64,000 bases of DNA, taken from contig NZ_JAGSPK010000005.1 of assembly GCF_018139565.1 (NCBI RefSeq), positions 186,001 to 250,000 of the forward strand, written 5' to 3'. Both the position numbers and the translations under genes were made by a program. The DNA comes from Cognatundibacterium rivi (lineage in GTDB: Bacteria; Pseudomonadota; Gammaproteobacteria; Burkholderiales; Burkholderiaceae_D). Below the pieces are notes generated by a model. That model had not been told where the DNA came from. It saw nothing but the letters and a program-made list of their open reading frames with translations, and searched no databases. Numbering within the stretch: the first letter of the stretch is position 1; every line of letters begins with the position of its first letter. Shown here piece by piece: positions 9,879-54,190 of the stretch.

Positions 9879-11432
9879 TTATTCAACGCTGGACATTTTT
9901 TTGCGTGATTTCGGCATTTCGACAAAAATCACACTACCCTGCGGCTTCTTGCCGAACAAAGCGCCATCGGAAACACCACCCGAGCAGCCATTACCGAATG
10001 TAAATCCGCAACTGCCTTTTTCATTGAAGCTGTCTTCGACCATTTCCTTGTGCGATGAAGGAATCACGAAACGATCTTCGTAGTTCGCAATCGCCATGGT
10101 CTGATACATGTCCTCAACCTGCGCTTCGGTTAAACCGACCTGCGCCAACACTGCTGTATCTTTCTGACCGTGCACAACTTCAGAACGTTTAAAGGCACGC
10201 ATTGCCAGCATACGATCCAGGGCTCTCAAGACAGGCTCTTCTTTACCGGCTGTCAGCAAATTTGCCAGATAACGGACTGGAATACGCAGCGATTTCACAT
10301 CAGGAATAATGCCGTTCATGCCCATGTGCCCTGCTTCTGCTGCCTTTTGAATCGGTGACAGAGGCGGTACATACCAGACCATAGGCAGCGTGCGGTATTC
10401 TGGATGCAGCGGGAAAGCAATCTTCCATTCCATCGCCATTTTGTAGACCGGCGATTTCTGTGCGGATTGAATCCAGCTCTCAGGAATGCCATGCTTACGT
10501 GCTTCGGCAATGACTTCCGGATCATGCGGGTTCAGGAAGCAACCGAGTTGCGCCTCGTACAAGTCTTTCTCATCCGGTACTGAAGCGGCTGCTTCTATCT
10601 TGTCAGCGTCATACAGCAAGACGCCAAGATAACGAATACGGCCTACGCAAGTTTCGGAACAGACTGTTGGCTGACCTGCTTCGATACGTGGGTAGCAGAA
10701 TGTGCATTTCTCTGCTTTGCCTGAGCTCCAGTTGTAGTAAATCTTTTTGTAAGGGCAACCGGAGATACACATACGCCAGCCGCGGCACTTGTCCTGATCG
10801 ACCAGAACGATACCGTCATCTTCCCGTTTGTAGATCGAGCCGGATGGGCAAGATGCTACGCACGCAGGATTCAGACAGTGTTCGCACAGACGTGGCAAGT
10901 ACATCATGAAGGTTGATTCAAAGGTGCTGTACATTTCTTTTTGTACGCCTTCGAATAACTGATCACGACTACGTGAGCTGAATTCGCCACCTAAGTCGTC
11001 TTCCCAGTTCGGGCCCCAGACGATCTTGTCCATCTTTTTGCCAGTGATGACAGAAACAGGACGTGCAGTCGGTGGTGTCTGCGACAGTGGTGCATTTTGC
11101 AGGCGCTCATAATCGTAAGTGAACGGCTCGTAGTAATCGTCAATCTGCGGCAGATTCGGATTCGCAAAAATGTTTGCCAGGATGCGCAGTTTGCCACCTT
11201 GCTTAGGCTCTAATTTGCCTGCCTCATTCCGATGCCAGCCACCTTTCCACTTGGACTGGTTTTCCCATTCTTTAGGATAGCCAATACCAGGTTTGGTTTC
11301 GACGTTATTAAACCAGGCATACTCAACGCCGTCGCGGCTGGTCCAGACATTTTTACAGGTCACGGAACAGGTGTGGCAGCCAATACATTTATCCAGGTTC
11401 AGCACCATGCCAACTTGTGCGCGAATTTTCAT
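9879..11432 (-). CDS. narH: Nitrate reductase beta subunit NarH
   Basis: A 517-residue electron-transfer subunit. Four cysteine groups that bind iron-sulfur clusters are visible: CIGCHTCSVTC near the start, CEHCLNPACVASC, CRGWRMCISGC (the Trp replaces a Cys, giving the three-iron cluster known in NarH) and CTFCYPRIEAGQPTVCSETC. It carries electrons from NarI to NarG. The ATG overlaps the narG stop codon by four bases (ATGA), which suggests translational coupling. Confidence 0.97.
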   Translation of the reverse strand: MKIRAQVGMVLNLDKCIGCHTCSVTCKNVWTSRDGVEYAWFNNVETKPGIGYPKEWENQSKWKGGWHRNEAGKLEPKQGGKLRILANIFANPNLPQIDDYYEPFTYDYERLQNAPLSQTPPTARPVSVITGKKMDKIVWGPNWEDDLGGEFSSRSRDQLFEGVQKEMYSTFESTFMMYLPRLCEHCLNPACVASCPSGSIYKREDDGIVLVDQDKCRGWRMCISGCPYKKIYYNWSSGKAEKCTFCYPRIEAGQPTVCSETCVGRIRYLGVLLYDADKIEAAASVPDEKDLYEAQLGCFLNPHDPEVIAEARKHGIPESWIQSAQKSPVYKMAMEWKIAFPLHPEYRTLPMVWYVPPLSPIQKAAEAGHMGMNGIIPDVKSLRIPVRYLANLLTAGKEEPVLRALDRMLAMRAFKRSEVVHGQKDTAVLAQVGLTEAQVEDMYQTMAIANYEDRFVIPSSHKEMVEDSFNEKGSCGFTFGNGCSGGVSDGALFGKKPQGSVIFVEMPKSRKKMSSVE

Positions 11433-14400
11433 GATGCAGACTCCTCTTCCAATTTACCCTCTAACCAATCTACTTTTCTCATCTTACGAAGAACCACAAA
11501 TTCATCGCGGTTACTACCGACCGTGCCGTAGTAATTGAAGCCATATGCCAGTTGCGCATAGCCACCAATCATATGGGTAGGTTTCAAGACCGCACGTGTC
11601 ACTGAGTTATGAATACCACCGCGCATACCTGACAATTCAGCACCCGGCGTGTTCACGATTTTTTCCTGAGCGTGATACATCAGACACATGCCTTTTGGCA
11701 CACGCTGACTCACCACGACACGTGCTGTCAACGTACCGTTACTGTTGAATACCTCAACCCAGTCGTTATCCACCAGACCTGCTTCTTTTGCCTCGATCTC
11801 AGAGACCCAGACGTGTGGGCCGCCGCGACTCAGGGTCAGCATGCGCAAGTTGTCAGAATAGGTTGAGTGAATGCCCCATTTCTGATGCGGTGTAATCCAG
11901 TTCAGCACGATCTCTTTTTCACCGTTCGGATGTTTGTTCAACATCGGCGCAACCGTCTTGGTATCGATCGCTGGTTTGTAGACGCAGAGACCTTCACCAA
12001 AATCGAGCATCCAGCGGTGATCCTGGTAGAACTGCTGACGACCGGTCAGTGTGCGCCATGGGATCAATTCATGTACGTTGGTATAACCGGCGTTGTAGCT
12101 GACTTCTTCCGATTCCAGACCAGACCAGGTCGGAGCCGAAATAATCTTGCGTGGCTGTGCCTGTACATCTCGGAAACGGATCTTGTCATGTTCACGACCA
12201 ACCGCCAGATGCGTATGATCGCGGCCAGTGATTTTCGATAAAGCATCCCATGCCTTGACGGAGACATGGCCATTGGTTTCTGGTGCGAATGTCAAAATCA
12301 TTTCGCAGGCATCAATCGCGGTATCCAGACGTGGACGTCCTTTCGATACGCCCTCTTCGGTCACCACCTTGGTGATGCCCCCGATTTCATGCACTTCGTG
12401 TTCGGTGTTCCAGTTAATCCCTTTACCACCATTGCCGAGTTTGTCTAACAAAGGCCCGATCGAAGTGAACTTTTTGTAGATTTCTTTGTAGTTACGTTCC
12501 ACCACAACGAAGCTAGGTGCAGTCTTACCAGGAATCAGATCGCACTCGCCTTTTTTCCAGTCTTTTGGTTCAAACGCCTGACCGAGTTCGCCCGGTGTAT
12601 CGTGCATCAAAGGTTGCAAGACGATGTCTTTGCGTGTGCCCAGATAGTCACCACCGATTTCAGTGAATTTTTTAGCGATACCTTTGTAAATTTCCCAGTC
12701 GGTTTTACTTTCCCACAAAGGTTGCACGGCTTCACTCAACGGATGAATGAAAGGATGCATATCAGAGGTATTCAGATCGTCTTTTTCATACCATGTCGCT
12801 GTTGGCAACACGATGTCGCCGTACAGACAGGTCGTGCTCATGCGGAAATCCAGCACAGTCAGCAAATCCAGCTTGCCTTCGGCGGCTTTTTCACGATACT
12901 TAACCTCAGATGGCTTGACCGCTTCATCAGGATCATCAAACAGCGCATTCTGTGTCCCAAGTAAATACTTCAGGAAATACTCATGGCCTTTGCCTGAACT
13001 ACCGAGAATATTCGAGCGCCAGACAAACATATTGCGCGGGAAGTTTTTAGGATTATCCGGATCATCGCAACTCATGTTCACGTGACCAGATTTCAGACTT
13101 TGTTTCAGGTATTCTGCTGGCTCCAGACCTGCAGCCACGGCCGCGTCACATACGTCCAACGGATTGGTTTCTAACTGAGGAACCGATGGCAGCCAACCGA
13201 GACGTTCTGACTTCGCATTCATATCGATCATGCTCATGTGGCTGACTTTGGATTTGTCTGCCGTTGGCGCAAGAATCTCATCGATATGCAATTTCTCATG
13301 ACGCCACTGACTGGTGTGCGCATAGAAGAAACTGGTGCCATTCATCTGACGTGGTGGACGTGTCCAGTCAGACGCAAATGCTAACGGTGCCCAACCAAAT
13401 TGTGGACGGAGTTTTTCCTGACCCACATAATGCGCCCAACCACCGCCGGATTGACCGACGCAACCACACATCATCAGCATATTGATGATGCCGCGATAAA
13501 TCATATCGTTGTGGTACCAGTGATTCAAAGCTGCACCAACGATGACCATGCTCTTACCATGTGTTTCGTGGGCGTTTTGTGCGAATTCACGTGCGACCTG
13601 AATGACCAGTTCACGTTTAACGCTGGTGTGTTTTTCCTGCCATGCTGGCGTGTAAGGTACGTCGTCATCGTAAGAATGAGCAACCGCGCCGCCCAGACCC
13701 TGATCTACACCGTAGTTAGCCATCGAGAGGTCATACACAGTGGCGACTAAGATTTCTGTACCGTCAGCTAAGGTCACTTTGCGTGCTGGCACATTGCGCA
13801 AGACCATGTCATTCGCATCGGCACCACCGAAGTAGTTAAAGCCTACGCTCACGACTTCGTCATGCTTGGCGACTAAGCTCAATTGCGGATCGATCTCACG
13901 ACCGGAACCACCATCTTTTGGCTCCAGATTCCAGCGACCGACTTTTTCACCGTTATTGACTTTACCTTCGCCCCAGCGATAACCAATAGAACCGTTTGGT
14001 GCAACGATATCGCCAGTTTTCTCATCAATCGCCAGTGTCTTCCAATCGCCATTGTTTTCTTCGTTCAAACCACCTGGCAATTGTGATGCTCGCAGCATCT
14101 GATCTGGTACGAAACTACCATTGCGCTCAACCAGACGTACCAACATAGGCATGTCGGTATATTGTTTGACATAGCTGCGGAAATAATCAGACTTGCCGCC
14201 AAGGTGGAATTCTTTCAGAATCACGTGGCCCATCGCCATTGCCAACGCGGCATCCGTACCCTGCTTAGGTGCCATCCAGATGTCACCGAATTTCACCATC
14301 TCACCGAAGTCAGAAGAGACAGCAACGGTCTTGGTACCTTTGTAACGCACTTCAGTATAGAAGTGGGCATCCGGTGTCCGTGTTTGCGGTACGTTAGAAC

Positions 14401-15157
14401 CCCAGACCATCAGGTAAGTGGAGTTGTACCAGTCAGCAGATTCTGGCACGTCGGTTTGTTCGCCCCAGATTTGCGGACTTGCTGGCGGCAAATCGCAATA
14501 CCAATCGTAGAAAGACAAGCATGCACCACCAATCAAAGACAGGTAGCGCGCGCCAGCGGCGTAAGACACCATCGACATCGCAGGAATCGGAGAAAAACCG
14601 ACGACGCGATCAGGGCCGAATTTTTTGACAGTGAACGCATTCGCTGCCGCGATGATTTCCTGTGCGGTATCCCAGTCAGCGCGCACAAAGCCGCCAAGAC
14701 CGCGAACCGATTTATAACGTTGCGCCTTGACCGGATCCTGACTGATCGATTCCCATGCCTGCACTGGCCCCATGGTCTTGCGCGCTTCTTGCCACATTTC
14801 CATCAGACGACCACGGATCATCGGATATTTAACACGTTGGGCAGAATAGACATACCAGCTGTACGAAGCACCGCGAGGGCAACCGCGTGGCTCATGATTC
14901 GGTAAATCAGGACGGGTACGCGGATAGTCTGTCTGCTGGGTTTCCCAGGTAATCAAGCCATTCTTGACATACACCTTCCAGGAACAGGAACCCGTACAGT
15001 TCACACCATGGGTGGAACGCACAATCTTGTCGTGCTGCCAACGGCTGCGGTAAGCGTTTTCCCACTTACGATCCTCTTCAACTACAGCACCATGACCATC
15101 GGAGAAGGTGGACTTCACCCGCGACATGAACTTCAATCTATCCAGAAAATGACTCAT
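11429..15157 (-). CDS. narG: Nitrate reductase alpha subunit NarG
   Basis: A 1242-residue molybdopterin guanine dinucleotide enzyme that reduces nitrate to nitrite. The N-terminal cluster ligands are present as His-x3-Cys-x3-Cys in HGVNCTGSC and a later Cys in PRGCPRGASYSW. The motif YNSTYLMVWGSN and the region with DFRMSTTCLYGDIVLPTATWYEK match membrane-bound NarG. There is no twin-arginine signal, as expected for the cytoplasm-facing enzyme. First gene of narGHJI, with a regulated leader of over 200 bases upstream. Confidence 0.97.
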   Translation of the reverse strand: MSHFLDRLKFMSRVKSTFSDGHGAVVEEDRKWENAYRSRWQHDKIVRSTHGVNCTGSCSWKVYVKNGLITWETQQTDYPRTRPDLPNHEPRGCPRGASYSWYVYSAQRVKYPMIRGRLMEMWQEARKTMGPVQAWESISQDPVKAQRYKSVRGLGGFVRADWDTAQEIIAAANAFTVKKFGPDRVVGFSPIPAMSMVSYAAGARYLSLIGGACLSFYDWYCDLPPASPQIWGEQTDVPESADWYNSTYLMVWGSNVPQTRTPDAHFYTEVRYKGTKTVAVSSDFGEMVKFGDIWMAPKQGTDAALAMAMGHVILKEFHLGGKSDYFRSYVKQYTDMPMLVRLVERNGSFVPDQMLRASQLPGGLNEENNGDWKTLAIDEKTGDIVAPNGSIGYRWGEGKVNNGEKVGRWNLEPKDGGSGREIDPQLSLVAKHDEVVSVGFNYFGGADANDMVLRNVPARKVTLADGTEILVATVYDLSMANYGVDQGLGGAVAHSYDDDVPYTPAWQEKHTSVKRELVIQVAREFAQNAHETHGKSMVIVGAALNHWYHNDMIYRGIINMLMMCGCVGQSGGGWAHYVGQEKLRPQFGWAPLAFASDWTRPPRQMNGTSFFYAHTSQWRHEKLHIDEILAPTADKSKVSHMSMIDMNAKSERLGWLPSVPQLETNPLDVCDAAVAAGLEPAEYLKQSLKSGHVNMSCDDPDNPKNFPRNMFVWRSNILGSSGKGHEYFLKYLLGTQNALFDDPDEAVKPSEVKYREKAAEGKLDLLTVLDFRMSTTCLYGDIVLPTATWYEKDDLNTSDMHPFIHPLSEAVQPLWESKTDWEIYKGIAKKFTEIGGDYLGTRKDIVLQPLMHDTPGELGQAFEPKDWKKGECDLIPGKTAPSFVVVERNYKEIYKKFTSIGPLLDKLGNGGKGINWNTEHEVHEIGGITKVVTEEGVSKGRPRLDTAIDACEMILTFAPETNGHVSVKAWDALSKITGRDHTHLAVGREHDKIRFRDVQAQPRKIISAPTWSGLESEEVSYNAGYTNVHELIPWRTLTGRQQFYQDHRWMLDFGEGLCVYKPAIDTKTVAPMLNKHPNGEKEIVLNWITPHQKWGIHSTYSDNLRMLTLSRGGPHVWVSEIEAKEAGLVDNDWVEVFNSNGTLTARVVVSQRVPKGMCLMYHAQEKIVNTPGAELSGMRGGIHNSVTRAVLKPTHMIGGYAQLAYGFNYYGTVGSNRDEFVVLRKMRKVDWLEGKLEEESAS

Positions 15158-15290
15158 CGTAACTCTCCATATCAGGTGGGCGATGTACCCACAAGTTTCT
15201 TTACTTGCACACTGAGAGTGTAGAGAGTCGGCGTCAGCACGCCCATTCTTCGGTGCGGTGTGTCAGCTCAAGCATTGGCACTAGGCTGAC

Positions 15291-15306
15291 TACTCCTTTA
15301 GAACTA
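15291..15306 (-). promoter_or_regulatory. NarL-like 7-2-7 site before narG
   Basis: TACTCCT-TT-AGAACTA is an inverted pair of heptamers. One half fits the NarL heptamer TACYNMT fully; the other (TAGTTCT on the minus strand) has one change. It lies between the FNR box and narG, overlapping a possible -10 (TCTAAA). Confidence 0.4.
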
Positions 15307-15323
15307 GTCGCTTTTCAGGAAAA

Positions 15324-15337
15324 ATGATTTGTATCAA
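15324..15337 (-). promoter_or_regulatory. FNR box of the narGHJI promoter
   Basis: Minus strand TTGATACAAATCAT differs from TTGAT-N4-ATCAA only in the last base. A class II position would put transcription start near 15289, leaving a leader of about 130 bases before narG. Confidence 0.65.
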
Positions 15338-15367
15338 CAGCACGAAAAAGACATCCGGCTTCGCCAA

Positions 15368-15398
15368 TAAAAAAGCCTCTGATCGCTATCAGAGGCTT
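15368..15398 (-). terminator. Rho-independent terminator after narK2
   Basis: An 11-bp stem AAGCCTCTGAT/ATCAGAGGCTT with a four-base loop; on the minus strand it runs into TTTTTTATT. It separates the narK1-narK2 unit from narGHJI. Confidence 0.85.
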
Positions 15399-15438
15399 AA
15401 TTTTCAGGCTAATACCTGAGCAAAAGACGACAACTGCA

Positions 15439-16821
15439 TCAACATGGCATCTCTGCGCCCTTACGTGAGTAGTACCACCAGGTTACCGCCATACATGTGA
15501 CGTAGAATCCGATGAAGACATACAAAGCCATATCAGGCGCACCCGTCATCTTGATCGAAGTACCAAAACCCTGAGGAATAAAGAAGCCGCCATACGCACC
15601 GATCGCACCGGAAAACCCCAGTACAGCAGCAGATTCCTTGGCCGCATCCAGACGCGCCTGCTTCAGCAGCGCTTCGCCCTTACCGGCAACCGCACGCTCT
15701 CTCTCAGTCTGAAAAATGATAGGAATCATGCAGAACGTCGAGCCGTTGCCGAGTCCGGTCAGAATAAACATCAGAATAAACGAACCCAGAAACATCATGA
15801 ACTGATGTGAATGCAAGGCTGGCAGAATACCAGTTGCAATCGTCAGTGCCATTGCCGCAAACACCCAGAACGTCAGACGGGCACCACCGATTTTATCTGA
15901 AATCATACCGCCGACAGGACGTGCCAACGCACCAGCCAAGGGTCCGAGGAACGCGAACTTAGCAACATCAATTTCAGGAAACTGCGCTTTGATCAGCATC
16001 GCAAAACCTGCAGAAAAGCCGATAAACGAACCGAACGTACCAATGTAGAGAAAACACATCAGCCAGTTATGTTTGCGCTTGAAAATCACCGCCTGATCTG
16101 CAAATGAAGCTTTCGCAGAAGCAATATCATTCATCCCAAACCAGGCAGCGATCGTCGCGGCAATAATCAGGGGAACCCAGACGAATCCGGCATTTCCCAG
16201 CCAATACATTTTATCGACGCCTGTTTTGGCATTGTGGAATAAAAATCCGTCACCAGAGATAGCAACGCCAAACATCGCGGACGAAATCACCAGCGGGGTC
16301 AGAAATTGCACCACAGACACGCCCAGATTACCGATACCCGCATTCATACCGGTCGCATAACCTTTGCGTGATTTAGGGAAAAAGAAACTGATATTCGCCA
16401 TACTGGAACTGAAATTACCGCCACCCAATCCGCACAACAAAGCCAATACCAGCAGTGTTGAATAATTGGTGGTCGGATCTTGCAACGCAAAACCCATACC
16501 GATGGCGGGAATCAGCAGACTTGCAGTTGAAATCGCAGTCCATTTGCGGCCACCAAACACCGGCACCAGGAATGAATAGAATATCCGCAAAGTCGCACCG
16601 GATAAGGCTGGCAGCGCGGTCAGAAAGAATAACTGATCTTTCGTGAATTTAAATCCGGCCTTATCCAGATTCGCCGCCACCACGCTCCATAACATCCAGA
16701 CCGAGAATGCCAGCATCAGACTAGGAATCGAAATCCATAGATTCCGGTTGGCAATCGCACTACCTTCTTTTTGCCAGAACTCCGGATTTTCCGGTTCCCA
16801 GCGTTTTAAAACATGGCTCAT
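15439..16821 (-). CDS. narK2: Nitrate/nitrite transporter, NarK2 type
   Basis: A 460-residue major facilitator protein with about twelve helices. Nitrate-porter signatures GLGGGNFSSSMANISFFFPKSRKG (shortened here to its core GGGNFSSSMANISFFFP) and GNGSTFCMIP with the following TERERAVA are present. NarK2-type carriers usually exchange nitrate for nitrite. The start is the ATG at 16821 with CAGGAG upstream; a longer frame would need a TTG. It follows narK1 closely, as in other betaproteobacteria where both carriers precede narG. Confidence 0.88.
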   Translation of the reverse strand: MSHVLKRWEPENPEFWQKEGSAIANRNLWISIPSLMLAFSVWMLWSVVAANLDKAGFKFTKDQLFFLTALPALSGATLRIFYSFLVPVFGGRKWTAISTASLLIPAIGMGFALQDPTTNYSTLLVLALLCGLGGGNFSSSMANISFFFPKSRKGYATGMNAGIGNLGVSVVQFLTPLVISSAMFGVAISGDGFLFHNAKTGVDKMYWLGNAGFVWVPLIIAATIAAWFGMNDIASAKASFADQAVIFKRKHNWLMCFLYIGTFGSFIGFSAGFAMLIKAQFPEIDVAKFAFLGPLAGALARPVGGMISDKIGGARLTFWVFAAMALTIATGILPALHSHQFMMFLGSFILMFILTGLGNGSTFCMIPIIFQTERERAVAGKGEALLKQARLDAAKESAAVLGFSGAIGAYGGFFIPQGFGTSIKMTGAPDMALYVFIGFYVTCMAVTWWYYSRKGAEMPC

Positions 16822-16880
16822 TATCTGCTCCTGATTTTCCAAAAAACGTTCATTACATTGAGGTGTATTCGCACCGGAAT

Positions 16881-18125
16881 TTATGCAGGTAACGATGCCT
16901 GTGCCGCCAGCATGCCTTCACGGCGGAACTGGAAGTGCATCCAAACCAGAGAAACACAGACGGTGCCGTACAACAGCATGAAACACGAGCTGCGAATACC
17001 GGTCACATCAACGATCGCGCCAAACATGATCGGCAAAATAAATCCACCCAGACCACCGGCCAGACCAACCACACCGGATACCGCGCCGATGTTGCTGCTG
17101 TAATCATCCGAAATAAACTTGAATACCGATGCTTTACCTACCGCCATCGCAATACCGACAACAAATAAAATCATGGTGAACAGCACTGGGGTCAGACCAA
17201 TATGGAATGTCTGCATGCCATTGATTGTTTTGATCGTGAAATCAGTTTGTGGGTAGGACAGCAAAAAGAATGCAACCCAGCAAACCCACATCACCCACCA
17301 GGTGACTTTGTAAGCGCCGTATTTATCTGAAAGCCAGCCACCGAAAGCGCGCAACACGCCGCCAGGTAAAGAGAAACAGGCGGCGAGCAAAGCGGCACTC
17401 TTGATATCAAAGCCGTATTCGGTGACGTAATATTTGACCATCCACAAACTCAGGCCGACGTAGCCGCCGAACACCACTGAGTAATACTGGCAATAACGCC
17501 AGACTTTGGGATCTTTCAGCATTTTGAGCTGCGCCATAAAGCTGACACTCGATTTCACGTTATGACTGGGATTTGTGGCGGAAAAAACCCAGAATATCAA
17601 CGCCGCGGCCAACATCATGCCTGCGTAGACTTTTGGAACCAGAGTCCAGCCAGCTGCCGCAATCAGCACAGGAGCAATAAATTTATTGACGGCAGCACCC
17701 GAATTACCGGCGCCGAAAATGCCCATTGCCAAACCTTGGCGCTCTTTTTTAAACCAGCGCGCAACGTACGGTGTACCGACTGAAAATGAACCACCAGCCA
17801 GACCAACAAACAAACCCAGTACAAGAAAATGCCAGTAAGCCGTTGCGTAACTGATCAGGTAAATCGGAATGACTGTCGACAACATCAGGAGGAACAACAC
17901 GATACGACCACCGAAACGATCAGTCCAGATACCCAACGGCACCCGTATCAATGAACCAGTCAGAACTGGCATGGCAGTCAATAAGCCAAATTCGGTCTCA
18001 TTTAAATGCAAGGCCGTTTTGATCGGAATACCGATCACACCAAACATCATCCAGATCGTAAAACACACAGTAAATGCCAAAGTACTGGAAGCCAGTACTG
18101 AATAGGCTTTGCCTTCATTCGCCAT
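16881..18125 (-). CDS. narK1: Nitrate transporter, NarK1 type
   Basis: A 414-residue major facilitator protein with twelve hydrophobic helices. GLAGGSFSVGTPYVARWF and GVVGLAGGLGGFILP are the two nitrate-signature stretches of NarK proteins. NarK1-type carriers take up nitrate with protons. AGGAG lies before the ATG. This is the first gene of the nitrate island; a degenerate FNR-like box lies 66 to 79 bases upstream and the prophage end 220 bases upstream. Confidence 0.88.
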   Translation of the reverse strand: MANEGKAYSVLASSTLAFTVCFTIWMMFGVIGIPIKTALHLNETEFGLLTAMPVLTGSLIRVPLGIWTDRFGGRIVLFLLMLSTVIPIYLISYATAYWHFLVLGLFVGLAGGSFSVGTPYVARWFKKERQGLAMGIFGAGNSGAAVNKFIAPVLIAAAGWTLVPKVYAGMMLAAALIFWVFSATNPSHNVKSSVSFMAQLKMLKDPKVWRYCQYYSVVFGGYVGLSLWMVKYYVTEYGFDIKSAALLAACFSLPGGVLRAFGGWLSDKYGAYKVTWWVMWVCWVAFFLLSYPQTDFTIKTINGMQTFHIGLTPVLFTMILFVVGIAMAVGKASVFKFISDDYSSNIGAVSGVVGLAGGLGGFILPIMFGAIVDVTGIRSSCFMLLYGTVCVSLVWMHFQFRREGMLAAQASLPA

Positions 18126-44811: not shown

Positions 44812-44831
44812 TGGATGGTGTTCATGGGAAT

Positions 44832-44860
44832 AACAAAGGCCGCTTGAAGCGGCCTTTGTT
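44832..44860 (-). terminator. Strong hairpin between early and late operons
   Basis: A 14-bp perfect stem AACAAAGGCCGCTT/AAGCGGCCTTTGTT around a single base, overlapping the stop codon of the preceding gene. It ends in TTTGTTATT on the minus strand and likely stops early or cargo transcription before the lysis genes. Confidence 0.75.
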
Positions 44861-45368
44861 AGTTACTCATTAAACTCTGTTTTTCTCTTTGAAGCCGATC
44901 AATCTCATTTTTTTGAATGATTATTTTATTGTTATAACTGCCTGCTACTGCATTCATCTCAGAACTGATACTTTGCTCATAGACTGCACCAGCCAGATTA
45001 TTATTCGCTGATCGTTTCTTATTTTTCAATGCTTGAAGCTCTGATTCCATTTGGCTACTCAGCATTCTTAATTTTATCTGTGCACTATCAATGTCTTCAT
45101 CCAACTGTCTGATCTTCACCCGATTATCAAGGCGCTGACGAACTTTCTCATTTGATTGTATCCGATCTCTATCATTCTGAATTACCTGCATTTCGGCATC
45201 ACTGCCTGATCCACTTGGAGGCGAGACTTTAACATCGATAGATTTTCCCTCACCTGGACAGGCTTTATCTGAAAAACTGACCTTGCCATCAATAACGCAT
45301 CGATATACTTCCGCATTCGCTAAATTACACAGCAAAAAACCTATCGCAATGACGGTAATCTTTTTCAT
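44859..45368 (-). CDS. Secreted DUF4124-like coiled-coil protein
   Basis: A 169-residue protein with a clear signal peptide (MKKITVIAIGFLLCNLANA) and then a DUF4124-like start EVYRCVIDGKVSFSDKACPGEG, whose two Cys may pair. The rest is a long coiled coil. It is AT-richer than the phage core genes, lies between the Mor-like regulator and the lysis genes, and has its own strong terminator, so it may be cargo expressed in the lysogen. The function is unknown. Confidence 0.65.
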   Translation of the reverse strand: MKKITVIAIGFLLCNLANAEVYRCVIDGKVSFSDKACPGEGKSIDVKVSPPSGSGSDAEMQVIQNDRDRIQSNEKVRQRLDNRVKIRQLDEDIDSAQIKLRMLSSQMESELQALKNKKRSANNNLAGAVYEQSISSEMNAVAGSYNNKIIIQKNEIDRLQREKQSLMSN

Positions 45369-45788: not shown

Positions 45789-46187
45789 TTAAAACAGACT
45801 GACCTGTAACTCTTTGTTCATATCTGTCGTTTTCAAAATCTCTCTTATCCAGCGGTCAGAAATTTCATATTCTTTGACCAGCTCTGCAATACTAGTGCCA
45901 TTATTATAACTGGCGACGATTCTTTTATTTCTTTTTGCAATGAAATGGTTGTGTAGGTTTGGAATGTATAAACGCTCACCACCAAATTGAATACTGAGCC
46001 GCTTTGCGTTTTCATGTCCAATGACTTCAGCAATACGTGCAAACGCTTGTTCGCCGCGCCCGACTTCTTTTTTTGGGAATTCAACTGTCATTCCCCCAAA
46101 GTTTTTGGCGTCCATCATCCGTAGCGCAGCCGCTTCACCAATCGTCTCTATCAATACTTTAACGGTGCTATCAGGTGTCGATGTCAT
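45789..46187 (-). CDS. Mor-family transcription activator
   Basis: A 132-residue regulator of the Mu Mor/C family. The N-terminal part is a dimerisation region (VLIETIGEAAALRMMDAKNFGGMTVEFP), then a beta strand (GGERLYIPN) and a C-terminal helix-turn-helix (NNGTSIAELVKEYEISDRWIREIL). In Mu, Mor turns on the middle promoter and C the late ones. I see only one such gene here, so it may do both jobs. ATGA overlap with the gp16-like gene. Confidence 0.85.
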   Translation of the reverse strand: MTSTPDSTVKVLIETIGEAAALRMMDAKNFGGMTVEFPKKEVGRGEQAFARIAEVIGHENAKRLSIQFGGERLYIPNLHNHFIAKRNKRIVASYNNGTSIAELVKEYEISDRWIREILKTTDMNKELQVSLF

Positions 46188-46615
46188 GCTTCAGCCCTCC
46201 CGTTTCTCTTTGCGTCATAGCTCAGTGCAGCAACAATTTTCATTAACTGATCTGGCTTACACCAATCAATCCGGTCTACTTTGCAAATACGTTTCGCCAT
46301 CGCGTCTGCATACACCCAAGGGCGTCCGGCCTCCGCCAGCTGTGCTTCTATTTTTCCGATTAATGCCTGGCGATCTGGAGTGACTTTAGGAGCGCTGCGG
46401 CCAGCGGATTTTGCTTTGACCTTGAAGCCAATTTTCTTAAAGTGATCCAGAAGTGCCTTGCGACCTTGCCATGTCAGTTCTTTGGATGATGTTTTACCAG
46501 TGACCTGCATCAGGATTGCGCGATAGGCGTCGTCATCCAGTGCCAGCTGTACTTTGGCGATGTGGATTTGCGCCAGCTCTGCTTTGCGTAATTGATCTGC
46601 TGTTTTTGGTATCAC
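46184..46615 (-). CDS. GemA/gp16 family protein (DUF1018)
   Basis: A 143-residue protein of the Mu gp16/GemA family: TADQLRKAELAQIHIAKVQLALDDDAYRAIL, TGKTSSKELTWQGRKALLDHFKKIGF, and a C-terminal region with RKAEQ-like PWVYADAMAKRICKVDRIDW. I chose the GTG at 46615, preceded by GAGG seven bases before; the upstream ATG at 46636 lies inside a hammerhead ribozyme core and has no ribosome site. GemA modulates host DNA topology and gene expression in Mu. Confidence 0.82.
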   Translation of the reverse strand: MIPKTADQLRKAELAQIHIAKVQLALDDDAYRAILMQVTGKTSSKELTWQGRKALLDHFKKIGFKVKAKSAGRSAPKVTPDRQALIGKIEAQLAEAGRPWVYADAMAKRICKVDRIDWCKPDQLMKIVAALSYDAKRNGRAEA

Positions 46616-46630
46616 TTGTTGTCCTCGGCT

Positions 46631-46691
46631 GCTCATCAGTACTGGACAACCACGTCCAGCAGACCAAACGGCTTATGCCGTCTGGTTTCGC
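46631..46691 (-). ncRNA. Type II hammerhead ribozyme, copy A
   Basis: On the minus strand, in order: GC, GAAA, a 9-bp stem III hairpin (CCAGACGGC/GCCGTTTGG, loop ATAA), the cleavage triplet GTC, an 8-bp stem I hairpin (TGCTGGAC/GTCCAGTA, loop GTGGTT), CTGATGA, GC. All invariant core bases are present, with A15.1-U16.1 closing stem III. Predicted cut lies between 46662 and 46661. Stem II has only two base pairs. It starts two bases after the stop codon of the upstream gene and ends just before the ribosome site of the gp16 gene. Confidence 0.85.
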
Positions 46692-47126
46692 TCAGGCTGC
46701 AAGTTCTGTGGTGTCCTCCGTACTCTCTGGAGCAACTTGCACTGATTCGCAAACCTTGCACAGATGGTTGATCGCCGCTTTTCCACTTGGCCAGTCGCAA
46801 GAAAAATAGGTGATTGTTTTATTCCAAAACGGGTCTTTGGCAACATGCCGCTTACCCAGCATCTTTTCCGCTTCTTTTCGTTTCGCCGGACTCCATAGCG
46901 CTCGTACCGCTTTACGCAGAAATTTTTGCTCTGGAAATTCCTTTTCGTTACTGAACCACTCACCTCGCCATTCACCATTGATATAAGTAGCTACGCGATA
47001 GCTCAAAGCTTTAGAACGTTCAACACGTAGGGTTATGGCGTACCCGTCACAAATCAATTTCACGTCCGCCCAAGGGCTATTCAGCTTCAATGCCAGTTCA
47101 TCTTTCTGTTCTTTAGTGAGTTTCAT
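46692..47126 (-). CDS. Conserved early phage protein, 144 aa
   Basis: Unknown function. The start at 47126 (MKLTKEQKDELALKLNSPWA) has GAGG eight bases before; the longer frame would begin in the hammerhead. Basic, with VERSKALSYRVATYINGEWRGEWF (core YRVATYINGEWRG) and two C-terminal cysteines in NHLCKVCESV that could bind metal. It is set between two ribozyme copies, so its mRNA would be released as a separate piece. Confidence 0.7.
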   Translation of the reverse strand: MKLTKEQKDELALKLNSPWADVKLICDGYAITLRVERSKALSYRVATYINGEWRGEWFSNEKEFPEQKFLRKAVRALWSPAKRKEAEKMLGKRHVAKDPFWNKTITYFSCDWPSGKAAINHLCKVCESVQVAPESTEDTTELAA

Positions 47127-47144
47127 CTTGTATCCTCTCCGGCT

Positions 47145-47205
47145 GCTCATCAGTACCAGGCAACCACGCCTGGCAGACCAAACGGCTTGCACCGTCTGGT
47201 TTCGC
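47145..47205 (-). ncRNA. Type II hammerhead ribozyme, copy B
   Basis: Same design as copy A on the minus strand: GC, GAAA, stem III (CCAGACGGT/GCCGTTTGG with loop GCAA), GTC, stem I (TGCCAGGC/GCCTGGTA, loop GTGGTT), CTGATGA, GC. Five of eight stem I pairs differ from copy A yet all still pair, which is direct covariation. Predicted cut between 47176 and 47175. It begins ten bases after the HU stop codon and ends before the ribosome site of the next gene. Confidence 0.85.
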
Positions 47206-47215
47206 TTATGTCGCT

Positions 47216-47491
47216 TTATTTGTTGACCAGATCTTTGAACGACTTGGCCGGGCTAAATTTCGGCGCACGTTTCGCTGGAATTTCAATGTCTTCACCCGTT
47301 TTAGGATTACGACCTGTACGCGCTGCGCGTTCTGTTGCGCTGAATTTGCCAAGATCGGTAATCGTGATTTCATTACCAGCGGCGACGGTGTCTTTCACAG
47401 TCGCCACCAGTTCGTTCAGGATTGATTCCGCTTGTGCTTTGGTGACATCTGCTGATTCTGCGAGGTGTTTAACGAGTTCTGCTTTGTTCAT
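47216..47491 (-). CDS. HU-family DNA-binding protein
   Basis: A 91-residue HU protein: MNKAELVKHLAESADVTKAQ, the beta-arm with GRNPKTGEDIEIPA and the C-terminal FSPAKSFKDLVNK. The GRNP turn includes the Pro that inserts into DNA. A phage-encoded HU may assemble transposition complexes, which in Mu need host HU and IHF. Placed between the DUF3164 gene and a hammerhead ribozyme in the early operon. Confidence 0.93.
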   Translation of the reverse strand: MNKAELVKHLAESADVTKAQAESILNELVATVKDTVAAGNEITITDLGKFSATERAARTGRNPKTGEDIEIPAKRAPKFSPAKSFKDLVNK

Positions 47492-51201: not shown

Positions 51202-51975
51202 TTAAATCTTCCGTTTTGGGTGGGTTGCGGAAGGCAATGCAATTTTTTGCAATGCGGCCAGATTCAGGCTGTCCATACCCTGCGTTAAACAGCTTTCAAA
51301 GATCACGTTTAAGCACTTGACGACGGATGACACTGAGCCTTTTGAAAAGGCTGTCAGAGCAGCTATGGCATCAGGCGCGATGTCGATATTTGGGCAATAG
51401 ATCGGAGCCAGTTTTTTTGCATCTTCGACAGTCACGTCCTGTGCCTCTGCCCATGCAGACACGCGTCGATAAAGCTGCTTGAATGCTGGTTTAGCGAGTT
51501 CGCCTGGCAGTTTCTCTTCACCTACAAGCAGAATTGGCGATTGAGTGCAATCGAAAATTGCGCGGGTGATCTGTGCCAGAACTGGTCTTTCAATAGCCCG
51601 GTTAAATTCGTCAATAATCAGGATGCGTTGAGACGCGGCCAGTTGCTGATTCACCATGTCAAACAGATCAGGGACACTGCAGCTGCGATCCCAGTCCACT
51701 TTCATTTCGTCCAGAATCTTTTGCAGGAAGGTCTTCTTCGTCCAGACTGGCTGCATTTGGACGAAGTAAGCGCGGGTTTCCATTGCCAGCACATTGCTGG
51801 AAAAAGTTTTACCCCATCCACTCGGCCCAAACAGGCAACCTATCCCATCCATACCGAAGCGGCGGTTTGTCAGTTGATCCAAGGTGGTCGCCACCAGATC
51901 AAATGTCGCGATAGCTGCAACACCTCCCTTTGGGCGATCTGCTGCTTGCTTGTTTTTTTGTTGGTTTGTACTCAT
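51202..51975 (-). CDS. Transposition ATPase, MuB/TnsC-like
   Basis: A 257-residue AAA+ ATPase. Walker A is GPSGWGKTFSS (about 50-60), Walker B is RILIIDEFNRA, and a sensor region PILLVGEEKLP follows. Proteins of this kind bind target DNA, form filaments and stimulate the DDE transposase, also giving target immunity. It lacks the N-terminal DNA-binding domain of Mu gpB and is shorter (Mu B has 312 residues), like the B3-type homologues. It lies 16 bases after the transposase gene. Confidence 0.88.
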   Translation of the reverse strand: MSTNQQKNKQAADRPKGGVAAIATFDLVATTLDQLTNRRFGMDGIGCLFGPSGWGKTFSSNVLAMETRAYFVQMQPVWTKKTFLQKILDEMKVDWDRSCSVPDLFDMVNQQLAASQRILIIDEFNRAIERPVLAQITRAIFDCTQSPILLVGEEKLPGELAKPAFKQLYRRVSAWAEAQDVTVEDAKKLAPIYCPNIDIAPDAIAALTAFSKGSVSSVVKCLNVIFESCLTQGMDSLNLAALQKIALPSATHPKRKI

Positions 51976-51991
51976 AATTCAGTCTCTTTCT

Positions 51992-54190
51992 TTAGTTGTT
52001 CATAACCAGCACGGTTGCCGCCGTGCTGTTTTCTTGTCCAGTTTGTCCCTGGTGCCTTCTGTAAAACGTTCTGAATTCCGATGACATCTGATAGCTCTGA
52101 TGCCAGTGTTTTAGTCTCGGTTCTATGTGTTCACCTCCCTCATTAAGTTGTTGATCTAATGTCAGCCATTTGGAAAACCGTGCCTGCGGTGTTTCAGGTA
52201 TGGCGACCACATTGCTGGCTGGCGTGTCGTGTGGTTCTTCGATTGGCGCTGCTTTCGGTGTCCATTCCACATCGGTGACTTGACGCGATACGACCTGCAG
52301 CATTTGCTCTGCATCACGTTCCAGCGCCCATTTGGCACGTAGTTGTTCGATGTCGGCCTGAATGCTGATGCCTTGGCTGACTTCCAGCGCTGGCATGCCT
52401 TCACGCTCTGCGCGGACTTCTTCCAGCTTCACTTCCAGGCGACGTTCGCGGCCAGCTGCACGTTTGTCTCGAGAACGCTCAACGAATGATTGCGGCATGT
52501 AGTCAACCTTGTTGCCGTCCAGCTCTGCAGTGCAGATCAGGCGGCCATCGTCGGCATAAATCCAAACCAGATGCGGATCATGCAGGTCATAGCCGACGCG
52601 AACCTCCGTGCCGTGAAACTCTTCTAACGCGTTGCTGTAGTAGCGGTTGGTGAATAGCTCGATTTCACAGCGACGGACGCTGCGTATGACCTGTGGCCGG
52701 AACAGTGGTCGCGCTTCATCCTCAGTGATGCGGTGTGCGCTAAAACCGTTTTCTTCGGCAAGTTGCCATGCTTCGTCCGGACTCATGTGACGGCGACGGC
52801 CTGTCGTCGGGTCAATGATCTTTGGCAGCGATGAATGTGGCGTGGCGTTATACTCTTCTACTTTTTCTTTGCAAAAGGGGATGAATAAGTCCCAAGGCAT
52901 CAGTGGCATGACAGTTGTTTCTTCCGCTTTTTTAGCGATTGCCTGGCGCGACAGTTTGAATACCTGCAGCTTGGCCTGACGATCCATGTCTTTACCGATA
53001 TAGCCTGGTACTTCTTTAGCTGCCTTGACCCAAATAGATTGGTGCAGGCGCTCAATAACGCCACGGGCTTGCGATGAATAAGGCAGACTGTTCACCATTT
53101 CAGTACCGAGCCTGGCCATCAGTCCCGTTGCCGTGTCTGTCATCATCTGGTTTACGTAACCAGAACCGTTATCGACGTACAGAATCGCTGGCACACCACC
53201 AACTAAGGTGGAAACGCGCAACGCGTCTAATACAGCCAATGCGCTTTCTGCCAGATCAATCGACCAGCCGACGACACGACGAGTCGCTATATCAACGACA
53301 CTGGTTATCTCAGGCCGAAATGGGCGGCCATGAAACGGGTGCTGCACTTCCGCATCAAAGGTGTGACCGTCGGCACTGTAGATGTCACTTGGCAGCAGCT
53401 TGTCAAAGGCGCGGCGCACAAAGCCTTTGATTGTTTTGAGTTCATGACTACCCATGCGACCTACCTGCACGGATACGGCACCGACTTTGGCGAGAAAACG
53501 GCGTACTTTGTGGATGCTCGGCAGATCGCCCTGGTAGCTTTGGCAGAACAGCTTGTATGCATGTTCGACTGTCGGCTTTTCAGGCCGCTGGTAATAAGAC
53601 ATGAAAGCCTTAGCCCATACGGGAACATTCATGTCGCGTTCACGTACTTTGGGTACGAGTGATGCAGTCTTCTGGTACTCAACAAAGCGGGTCAGGCTAC
53701 GGTCTGATGGCAAACCATCGTCGCTGGAGCGGCCACGGCCATCCCTGGCGAGTTTCAACATGGCGACCAGTTGTGGGCTGGCATCGCCATTACGGGCGAT
53801 ATCAATCAAATATTTTGCCGCCCGTTTTAACGGATAGCCAGTGCGCTGCATAACAGCGTTTAACGCATCAAGTACACCTTTACGTGCGTCTGCCGTTAAA
53901 TTCTGTGCTTCGGTGTGCGCAAGACTGGATTGCGGTGCAACAACAGGTATATTTTGCGGGGTAATTGTCGCTGCTAACTGTTTCGTCACGGCGCGGCGAA
54001 TCAATTCCATGACTTCCGCTGGTGGCGTGTATTCGCGGCGTAGACCACCACGGCCTGATACTTCTGTGTAGTTCCAGTTTTGGCGATCTGCGAGTGCAAT
54101 GATGCTGACCTTTGAAGTCGGCAATCCTGGTAAAAGCATTGCCGCAAGTTCAGCAGCGGTGTACTGAGACTTGACGATAACGGTACTCAT
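51992..54190 (-). CDS. DDE transposase A (MuA family)
   Basis: A 732-residue integrase/transposase. The N-terminal winged helix (AAELAAMLLPGLPTSKVSII) is of the Mu repressor/transposase type and is shared with the phage repressor. The catalytic core shows Asp274 (YSADGHTFD), Asp340 (YVDNGSGY) and Glu380 (GVIERLHQS), followed by a beta-barrel Mu_transpos_C part (about 500-570) and a basic coiled C-terminus that should contact the ATPase. Near full length compared with MuA (663). It integrates and replicates the phage DNA. Confidence 0.95.
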   Translation of the reverse strand: MSTVIVKSQYTAAELAAMLLPGLPTSKVSIIALADRQNWNYTEVSGRGGLRREYTPPAEVMELIRRAVTKQLAATITPQNIPVVAPQSSLAHTEAQNLTADARKGVLDALNAVMQRTGYPLKRAAKYLIDIARNGDASPQLVAMLKLARDGRGRSSDDGLPSDRSLTRFVEYQKTASLVPKVRERDMNVPVWAKAFMSYYQRPEKPTVEHAYKLFCQSYQGDLPSIHKVRRFLAKVGAVSVQVGRMGSHELKTIKGFVRRAFDKLLPSDIYSADGHTFDAEVQHPFHGRPFRPEITSVVDIATRRVVGWSIDLAESALAVLDALRVSTLVGGVPAILYVDNGSGYVNQMMTDTATGLMARLGTEMVNSLPYSSQARGVIERLHQSIWVKAAKEVPGYIGKDMDRQAKLQVFKLSRQAIAKKAEETTVMPLMPWDLFIPFCKEKVEEYNATPHSSLPKIIDPTTGRRRHMSPDEAWQLAEENGFSAHRITEDEARPLFRPQVIRSVRRCEIELFTNRYYSNALEEFHGTEVRVGYDLHDPHLVWIYADDGRLICTAELDGNKVDYMPQSFVERSRDKRAAGRERRLEVKLEEVRAEREGMPALEVSQGISIQADIEQLRAKWALERDAEQMLQVVSRQVTDVEWTPKAAPIEEPHDTPASNVVAIPETPQARFSKWLTLDQQLNEGGEHIEPRLKHWHQSYQMSSEFRTFYRRHQGQTGQENSTAATVLVMNN

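Follow-up and report, generated by a model that had tools for sequence, protein, structure and literature searches.

Tandem type II hammerhead ribozymes as probable gene separators in a Mu-like prophage early operon

The closest described system is the type II hammerhead ribozyme of Rfam family RF02276 (PMC3088659), for which a pseudoknot, several copies around prophage genes and a suggested processing into single-gene mRNAs have been published. It shares core, permutation, short stem II, pseudoknot and the flanking of single prophage genes with the pair studied here, and no structural difference between them was found. Hammerhead and twister ribozymes are enriched near Mu-like phage genes and near each other (PMC10085705); the available part of that source mentions neither a fit to stop codon and SD nor long arrays with one ribozyme per gene. 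In Mu-like Pseudomonas phages (D3112, DMS3 and the JBD group), a hammerhead likewise precedes gemA-mor among the early genes. D3112 has one copy in the 8-kb stretch examined, followed by a short ORF and gemA, whereas the present locus has two around a single gene, X. Phage T7 likewise has its polycistronic early mRNA split into mono- and dicistronic pieces (PMC4858673), but there a host protein cuts, while the RNA described here is predicted to cut itself. Hammerheads in repeated units that release unit-length RNA are also known from retrozymes and viroid-like circular RNAs (PMC7761336). Those are of types I and III and are circularised; here, type II ribozymes lie around a protein gene in a phage operon of a host without a match to the ligase RtcB. 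A 2017 review (PMC6155905) regarded the role of prokaryotic hammerheads as unsettled. The pair is a further case of a published ribozyme type whose placement and Mu-like association are already in print.

The window is the whole stretch of 64,000 nucleotides of Cognatundibacterium rivi DNA that was analysed. The features of interest are, in minus-strand order:

51992-54190, minus strand: Mu-type transposase A (phrog_310, 4.9e-161)
51202-51975, minus strand: Mu-type transposase B (phrog_296, 1.7e-45)
47216-47491, minus strand: gene of an HU-like DNA-binding protein, upstream of copy 2 (PF00216, 2.9e-33)
47145-47205, minus strand: type II hammerhead ribozyme copy 2, HU-X junction (RF02276, 60.9 bits, Rfam extent 47137-47207)
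47175-47176, minus strand: predicted cleavage site of copy 2, C 47176 / U 47175 (sequence, hammerhead numbering)
47140-47144, minus strand: 3' tail of copy 2, pseudoknot with loop I (47162-47167), continuing into the SD GGAGAGG (sequence; covariation)
46692-47126, minus strand: gene X, 144 aa, between the ribozymes, its stop codon abutting copy 1 (phrog_5671, function unknown, 1.1e-26)
46631-46691, minus strand: type II hammerhead ribozyme copy 1, X-gemA junction (RF02276, 57.7 bits, Rfam extent 46623-46693)
46661-46662, minus strand: predicted cleavage site of copy 1, C 46662 / U 46661 (sequence, hammerhead numbering)
46626-46630, minus strand: 3' tail of copy 1, pseudoknot with loop I (46648-46653), continuing into the SD GAGGA (sequence; covariation)
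46184-46615, minus strand: gemA, with a GTG start 17 nt after the core of copy 1 (PF06252, 8.6e-27)
45789-46187, minus strand: mor, middle/late transcription activator (PF08765, 1.4e-17)

Judged by their sequence, both elements are type II hammerheads of RF02276. A preliminary description of this DNA had placed them at exactly these positions on the minus strand, with every core base present in type II order, and had suggested a search with the Rfam hammerhead II model. The search confirmed the assignment, as the scores of 60.9 and 57.7 bits both exceed the gathering cut-off of 37 bits (Hammerhead_II, Rfam 15). The invariant core (CUGANGA, GAAA and the UH cleavage site) is complete in both copies according to the sequence, the Rfam alignment and a scan with a core pattern, which occurred twice in the window and never in 100 shuffles. 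The Rfam model alignment and pair counts gave the permutation with stems I and III closed and stem II open for both. The 5' ends formerly predicted at 47175 and 46661 also agree with the sequence. Our own covariance model, R1, scored copy 2 with 78.2 bits and copy 1 with 76.4 bits, having been built partly from both. The two were the only RF02276 matches in the host genome (3.92 Mb) among the 150 of 664 first-look candidates that were scored.

Copy 1 and copy 2 differ at nine of 61 positions. Six of these, not five as counted earlier, lie in stem I, where they amount to three base pairs with full compensation (U-A/C-G, G-C/A-U and A-U/G-C), so that the claim of kept pairing in both copies stands. 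In stem III, one paired position changes from C-G to U-G and pairing survives as had been described; the two remaining differences are loop III bases. The upstream flanks are unlike each other (17 of 60 positions agree), and the downstream flanks agree at 27 of 60 positions, partly owing to the common AGCC tail that opens this stretch.

Stem II is GC/GC in both copies. Its length of two base pairs was given correctly in the preliminary description, which called it extremely short; this part does not hold, as stem II of type II hammerheads often consists of no more than two pairs (PMC3088659). Tertiary help had been considered, and a pseudoknot between loop I and the 3' tail is indeed present by sequence in copy 1 and copy 2 and covaries in an alignment of 78 hammerheads. 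Dimer action or slow cleavage, named as further consequences of the short stem, are unneeded given this pseudoknot, and a dimeric hammerhead was rejected because two-pair stems II are usual and the pseudoknot is present. In a type II ribozyme with a one-pair stem II, shortening the pseudoknot lowered the rate by ∼20- to >100-fold (PMC3088659). In the 2024 crystal structure of another pseudoknot hammerhead, helix II is wholly replaced by the pseudoknot, and a rate of 16 per minute was reported at 1 mM magnesium and 2 M NaCl (PMC11300833).

Covariation in homologous phages, the absence of which had been named as a possible refutation, was found in two alignments. The first, A1, was built without a model from 25 hammerheads of protein-chosen, phage and host-family loci, omitting the three weakest host-family matches (L050-L052). 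It had 94.1% of its cells paired and 67 cells with a double change versus 20.3 in shuffles. With R1, made from A1, 78 hammerheads were retrieved from 55 chosen loci at E ≤ 1e-9. In their model alignment, 97.6% of the cells were paired and 267 carried double changes versus 59.5 in shuffles; double changes of any kind occurred at 14 pairs, a number equalled or exceeded in 85 of 500 shuffles. This alignment was fitted to the stems with the pseudoknot left unfitted, and 95.8% of the pseudoknot cells were paired. The sole pseudoknot pair varying on both sides turned from G-C to C-G in four of the 78 and to A-U in one. A tentative fifth pair was unpaired in 16 of 25 rows, yet it can form in both window copies. 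The tail read AGCC in 65 and AACC in seven of the 78 hammerheads. Hairpins III and I had median energies of -14.6 and -13.5 kcal/mol in the same set.

Fold predictions for the window were mixed. Copy 2 alone was predicted to fold with hairpins III and I; for copy 1 with its flank, the preferred fold paired loop/stem I with the gemA SD. In a fold of 706 nt, stem III was formed in both copies and stem I in neither. We take this as a warning and not as a refutation, since the folding programs score neither the pseudoknot nor folding during transcription. The competing fold of copy 1 can be traced to 46616-46653 (minus strand), where GUUGUCC of loop/stem I is complementary to GGACAAC at the gemA ribosome site.

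The minus-strand gene order is Mu transposase A, transposase B, a DUF3164 gene, HU, X, gemA and mor, with the two transposases (51202-54190) upstream of the ribozymes in the same direction. With transposase A and B, GemA and Mor found in order, the element is a Mu-like (transposable) prophage, and the protein families and positions bear out the earlier view of a Mu-like early operon in which two ribozymes flank one gene. The position also supports a predicted cut just ahead of ribosome sites: in both copies the tail lies directly ahead of the ribosome site. X starts 20 nt after the core of copy 2; copy 2 itself lies 10 nt past the HU stop codon. Promoter-like sites between 44600 and 50000 numbered 4 versus 6.4 expected by chance, and the segment 46600-47500 of the minus strand had none of the promoter types covered. 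A local promoter yielding separate messages was rejected, as such sites are no commoner than chance and none lies on the minus strand near X. Terminator-like sites numbered 9 versus 7.1 expected, one of them at 47542-47525 (minus strand) upstream of HU. Downstream of the early genes, a strong GC hairpin at 44831-44910 (minus strand) carries a sub-threshold match to sroD (24.9 bits, cut-off 50) and may be a terminator.

In the host family, 15 of 392 genomes including the host had a match at E ≤ 0.001, 14 of them over the cut-off. Among 50,697 phage records, 123 matched the D3112 copy, of which 119 belong to Pseudomonas phages; among 60 listed matches, one was annotated as a type II hammerhead (LESphi4, OQ594957.1). 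The R1 set consists of matches of at least 40 bits, namely at least 125 in at least 80 loci, after L085, which shares its contig with L036, and repeated rows of L039 and L053 were dropped. None of the 125 are identical including flanks, though several are closely related. Many loci were chosen by a pattern that requires an intact core, so that core conservation there is a result of selection; for this reason and because the matches listed are a lower bound, no prevalence is derived from these loci. A Mu-type gene was detected with iterated profiles in 65 of the 80 loci, some of them short fragments, and among the matches listed 52 of these have one match and 13 have more. Where both DUF3164 and GemA were present, 57 of 61 hammerheads listed lay between the two (stop-to-stop ORFs); the exceptions are two in L087, one in L104 and one in L115. 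Those of L087 (1061-1494) sit after mor, the one of L104 (1371-1438) directly before a transposase gene and the one of L115 (4687-4751) ∼0.4 kb before such a gene. The order hammerhead-X-hammerhead-gemA recurs in L100 and L166. Forty further loci (L296-L335) were chosen by the protein profile of X, blind to ribozymes. No strong hammerhead was found near X in 25 of them; the ribozyme is hence not required everywhere.

The ribozyme is fitted to the gene junction, reaching from the stop codon to the ribosome site. All 74 hammerheads of at least 60 bits, including the two of the window and several from one record (L120), were examined for an ORF of at least 50 aa ending within -12 to +3 of stem II and for a start codon with SD located 12-33 nt downstream of the core. 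The stop was at stem II in 61, SD and start followed in 51 and both applied to 41 of the 74. At random positions on the same strand, the mean frequencies were 5.6%, 6.6% and 0.7%, respectively, and the highest values reached in 60 draws were 13.5%, 14.9% and 4.1%. In 36 cases the stop codon lay within one base of stem II, and in 40 cases 15-21 nt separated the core from the start codon. Eighteen of the 74 are without SD plus start within 60 nt and 11 without a stop within 40 nt. For 51 weaker matches (40-60 bits), the stop was found in 47%, SD plus start in 71% and both in 37%.

The fit is repeated many times in L294 (IMG/VR 3300017605_000570), a metagenomic contig of 57 kb that we assign to a myophage because it carries terminase, portal, head and tail sheath genes. 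Its 24 type II hammerheads lie on one strand in a stretch of 7.6 kb (9932-17520), all score above the Rfam cut-off, and they amount to nearly one per junction of small genes. When ORFs of at least 25 codons and a less strict set of SD sequences were allowed, 23 of the 24 cores were followed by a start codon at a distance of 16-23 nt, and all 22 of these genes that have a next ribozyme stop close to its stem II, from 1 nt inside it to 5 nt short of it. In a model alignment of the 24 copies, 99.2% of the cells were paired, with 117 double-change cells versus 37.6. R1 also found several copies in other virus contigs, namely seven in L155 (within 4.2 kb), seven in L084, six each in L133 and L074 and four in L127. 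Rfam, run on parts of these records, gave counts that differ somewhat from those of R1.

mRNA processing by predicted self-cleavage is the function best supported for the window pair, and the two elements are probably functional type II hammerheads acting as gene separators in the early operon. Within a putative long early transcript of the minus strand, each ribozyme would fold in the space that separates a stop codon from the next ribosome site: the two hairpins, III and I, would form, the two-pair stem II would close the core and loop I would pair with the AGCC tail. Each would then cut itself once, yielding an upstream mRNA that ends after HU, a gene X mRNA of 514 nt and a gemA-mor mRNA. 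Since the type II order leaves stem II open and the cut falls between hairpins III and I, the upstream piece would carry hairpin III as its 3' cap, and the downstream piece would start directly with hairpin I and keep an accessible SD. Decay is slowed by hairpins at the 5' terminus and by 5'-OH ends. The hairpin caps would be expected to stabilise the pieces, so that each gene group may be expressed and degraded separately and the downstream SDs used independently. The Rfam scores, the covariation, the position between DUF3164 and GemA, the junction fit, the loci L100 and L166, L294, the stable hairpins and the chance-level number of promoter-like sites argue for this separator role. In addition, the fragments expected were obtained in vitro from three further tandem sets, and a triplet from Agrobacterium was cleaved in E. 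coli (PMC3088659). The separator role is weakened by four of 18 consensus-conforming hammerheads that were inactive when assayed by Perreault 2011 (PMC3088659), by the competing folds, X loci without a hammerhead, unfitted junctions and the 85 of 500 shuffles, as well as by the terminator-like site at 47542-47525, though the total of such sites is near expectation.

The same junction holds another element in some relatives. R2 is a long irregular hairpin of ∼60 nt that covaries, e.g. at 1433-1500 of L315 and 1434-1501 of L296, upstream of X. In the cases inspected, the stop codon mostly forms its start and the ribosome site its end. Strong hammerheads (R1) occurred in 15 and R2 (E < 0.01) in 17 of the 40 X loci: 13 had only the hammerhead, 15 only R2, two had both and ten neither. 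This mutual exclusion (Fisher p 0.007, or 0.006 once two near-identical loci are removed) is partly by construction, because R2 was noticed in, and built from, hammerhead-less gaps (nine loci) and because the loci are related. In an unfitted alignment of R2, 79.1% of the cells were paired with 31 double-change cells versus 14.6, and in a fitted one 88.9% with 68 versus 27.2; further pair types were no higher than in shuffles, 306 (unfitted) and 213 (fitted) of 500 being as high. The matches outside the training set comprise close kin of training loci (L312, L314 and L317), elements farther upstream of X (L301 and L316) and elements after X near gemA (L328, L320 and L319, the latter two weak). 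No match for R2 was seen in 294 host-family genomes, a result that carries no weight for want of a positive control, and 40 loci mostly carrying hammerheads gave one weak match (E 0.53). A known RNA family was rejected for R2, as Rfam gave no match in five loci checked with E up to 5. R2 is possibly a processing site of RNase III type, a translation hairpin or an unknown ribozyme. Neither R2 nor the fit from stop codon over ribozyme to SD nor the long one-per-gene arrays were met in the available parts of the literature searched; they may nevertheless have been published.

The recurrence of the X-flanking pair in L100 and L166 would also suit an excision of X as circular or spliced RNA. The 514-nt piece contains a whole hammerhead, half from each copy, with identical stems II (GC/GC) in tandem type II geometry, and could rejoin its ends. 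However, the host genome has no match to the RtcB ligase (PF01139), which nine of 14 control genomes do match, circular or spliced products of tandem hammerheads were undetected by Perreault 2011 (PMC3088659), and most Mu-type loci have a single hammerhead among the matches listed. The missing RtcB match and that negative result disfavour a circular or spliced X RNA, which we regard as very improbable. Equally improbable are relics or passengers that were spread by recombination and have no cleavage role; the patchy occurrence among relatives (15 of 40 X loci) would agree with them, but the core is intact in both window copies, three compensated pairs separate these, covariation is strong and the place in the operon recurs. 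The separator reading could be refined if ribosomes gated the cut. Judged by ribosome footprint sizes, a ribosome on the upstream stop codon would hide the GAAA strand, and the pseudoknot tail would be masked by a 30S subunit bound at the downstream SD, so that only untranslated or just-vacated messages would be cut and separation would be regulated and not constitutive. The stop codons within one base of stem II, the start codons 15-21 nt after the core and copy 1, which abuts the X stop codon and whose tail continues into the gemA SD, are in line with such gating. Compactness alone is expected in dense phage genomes, however, and copy 2 lies 10 nt past the HU stop codon, so that we consider gating possible but unlikely.

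A similarly doubtful extension is that the junction is a general slot for mRNA processing, filled by a hammerhead in some phages and in others by a long hairpin that RNase III or a similar protein would cleave. The split of the 40 X loci and the pairing in R2, which fills the gap from stop to SD, point this way, and RNase III cleaves the early mRNA of T7 (∼7,000 nt) at five places (PMC4858673). Against this, cleavage of R2 is hypothetical, the exclusion has the bias described above, the further pair types of R2 stay within the shuffles, and R2 could also control translation or be a ribozyme of its own. Taken a step further, type II hammerheads might be purpose-built phage separators that combine stop codon, ribozyme and ribosome site in one element of ∼80 nt, in a slot that an unrelated hairpin can refill; we put this forward tentatively, as conceivable more than as probable. 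Ribosomes and ribozyme would then compete for the same RNA and the cuts would leave hairpin-capped monocistronic mRNAs, with an extreme case in the 7.6-kb operon diced at 24 places, where RNA would do the job that host RNase III does for T7. The window pair, the related element of laboratory phages such as D3112 and DMS3 and the operon with 24 ribozymes together give a concrete and testable model of gene separation. As for the R2 hairpin, its loop has GUUAA in nine of 16 matches, which is complementary to UUAAC at the ribosome site.
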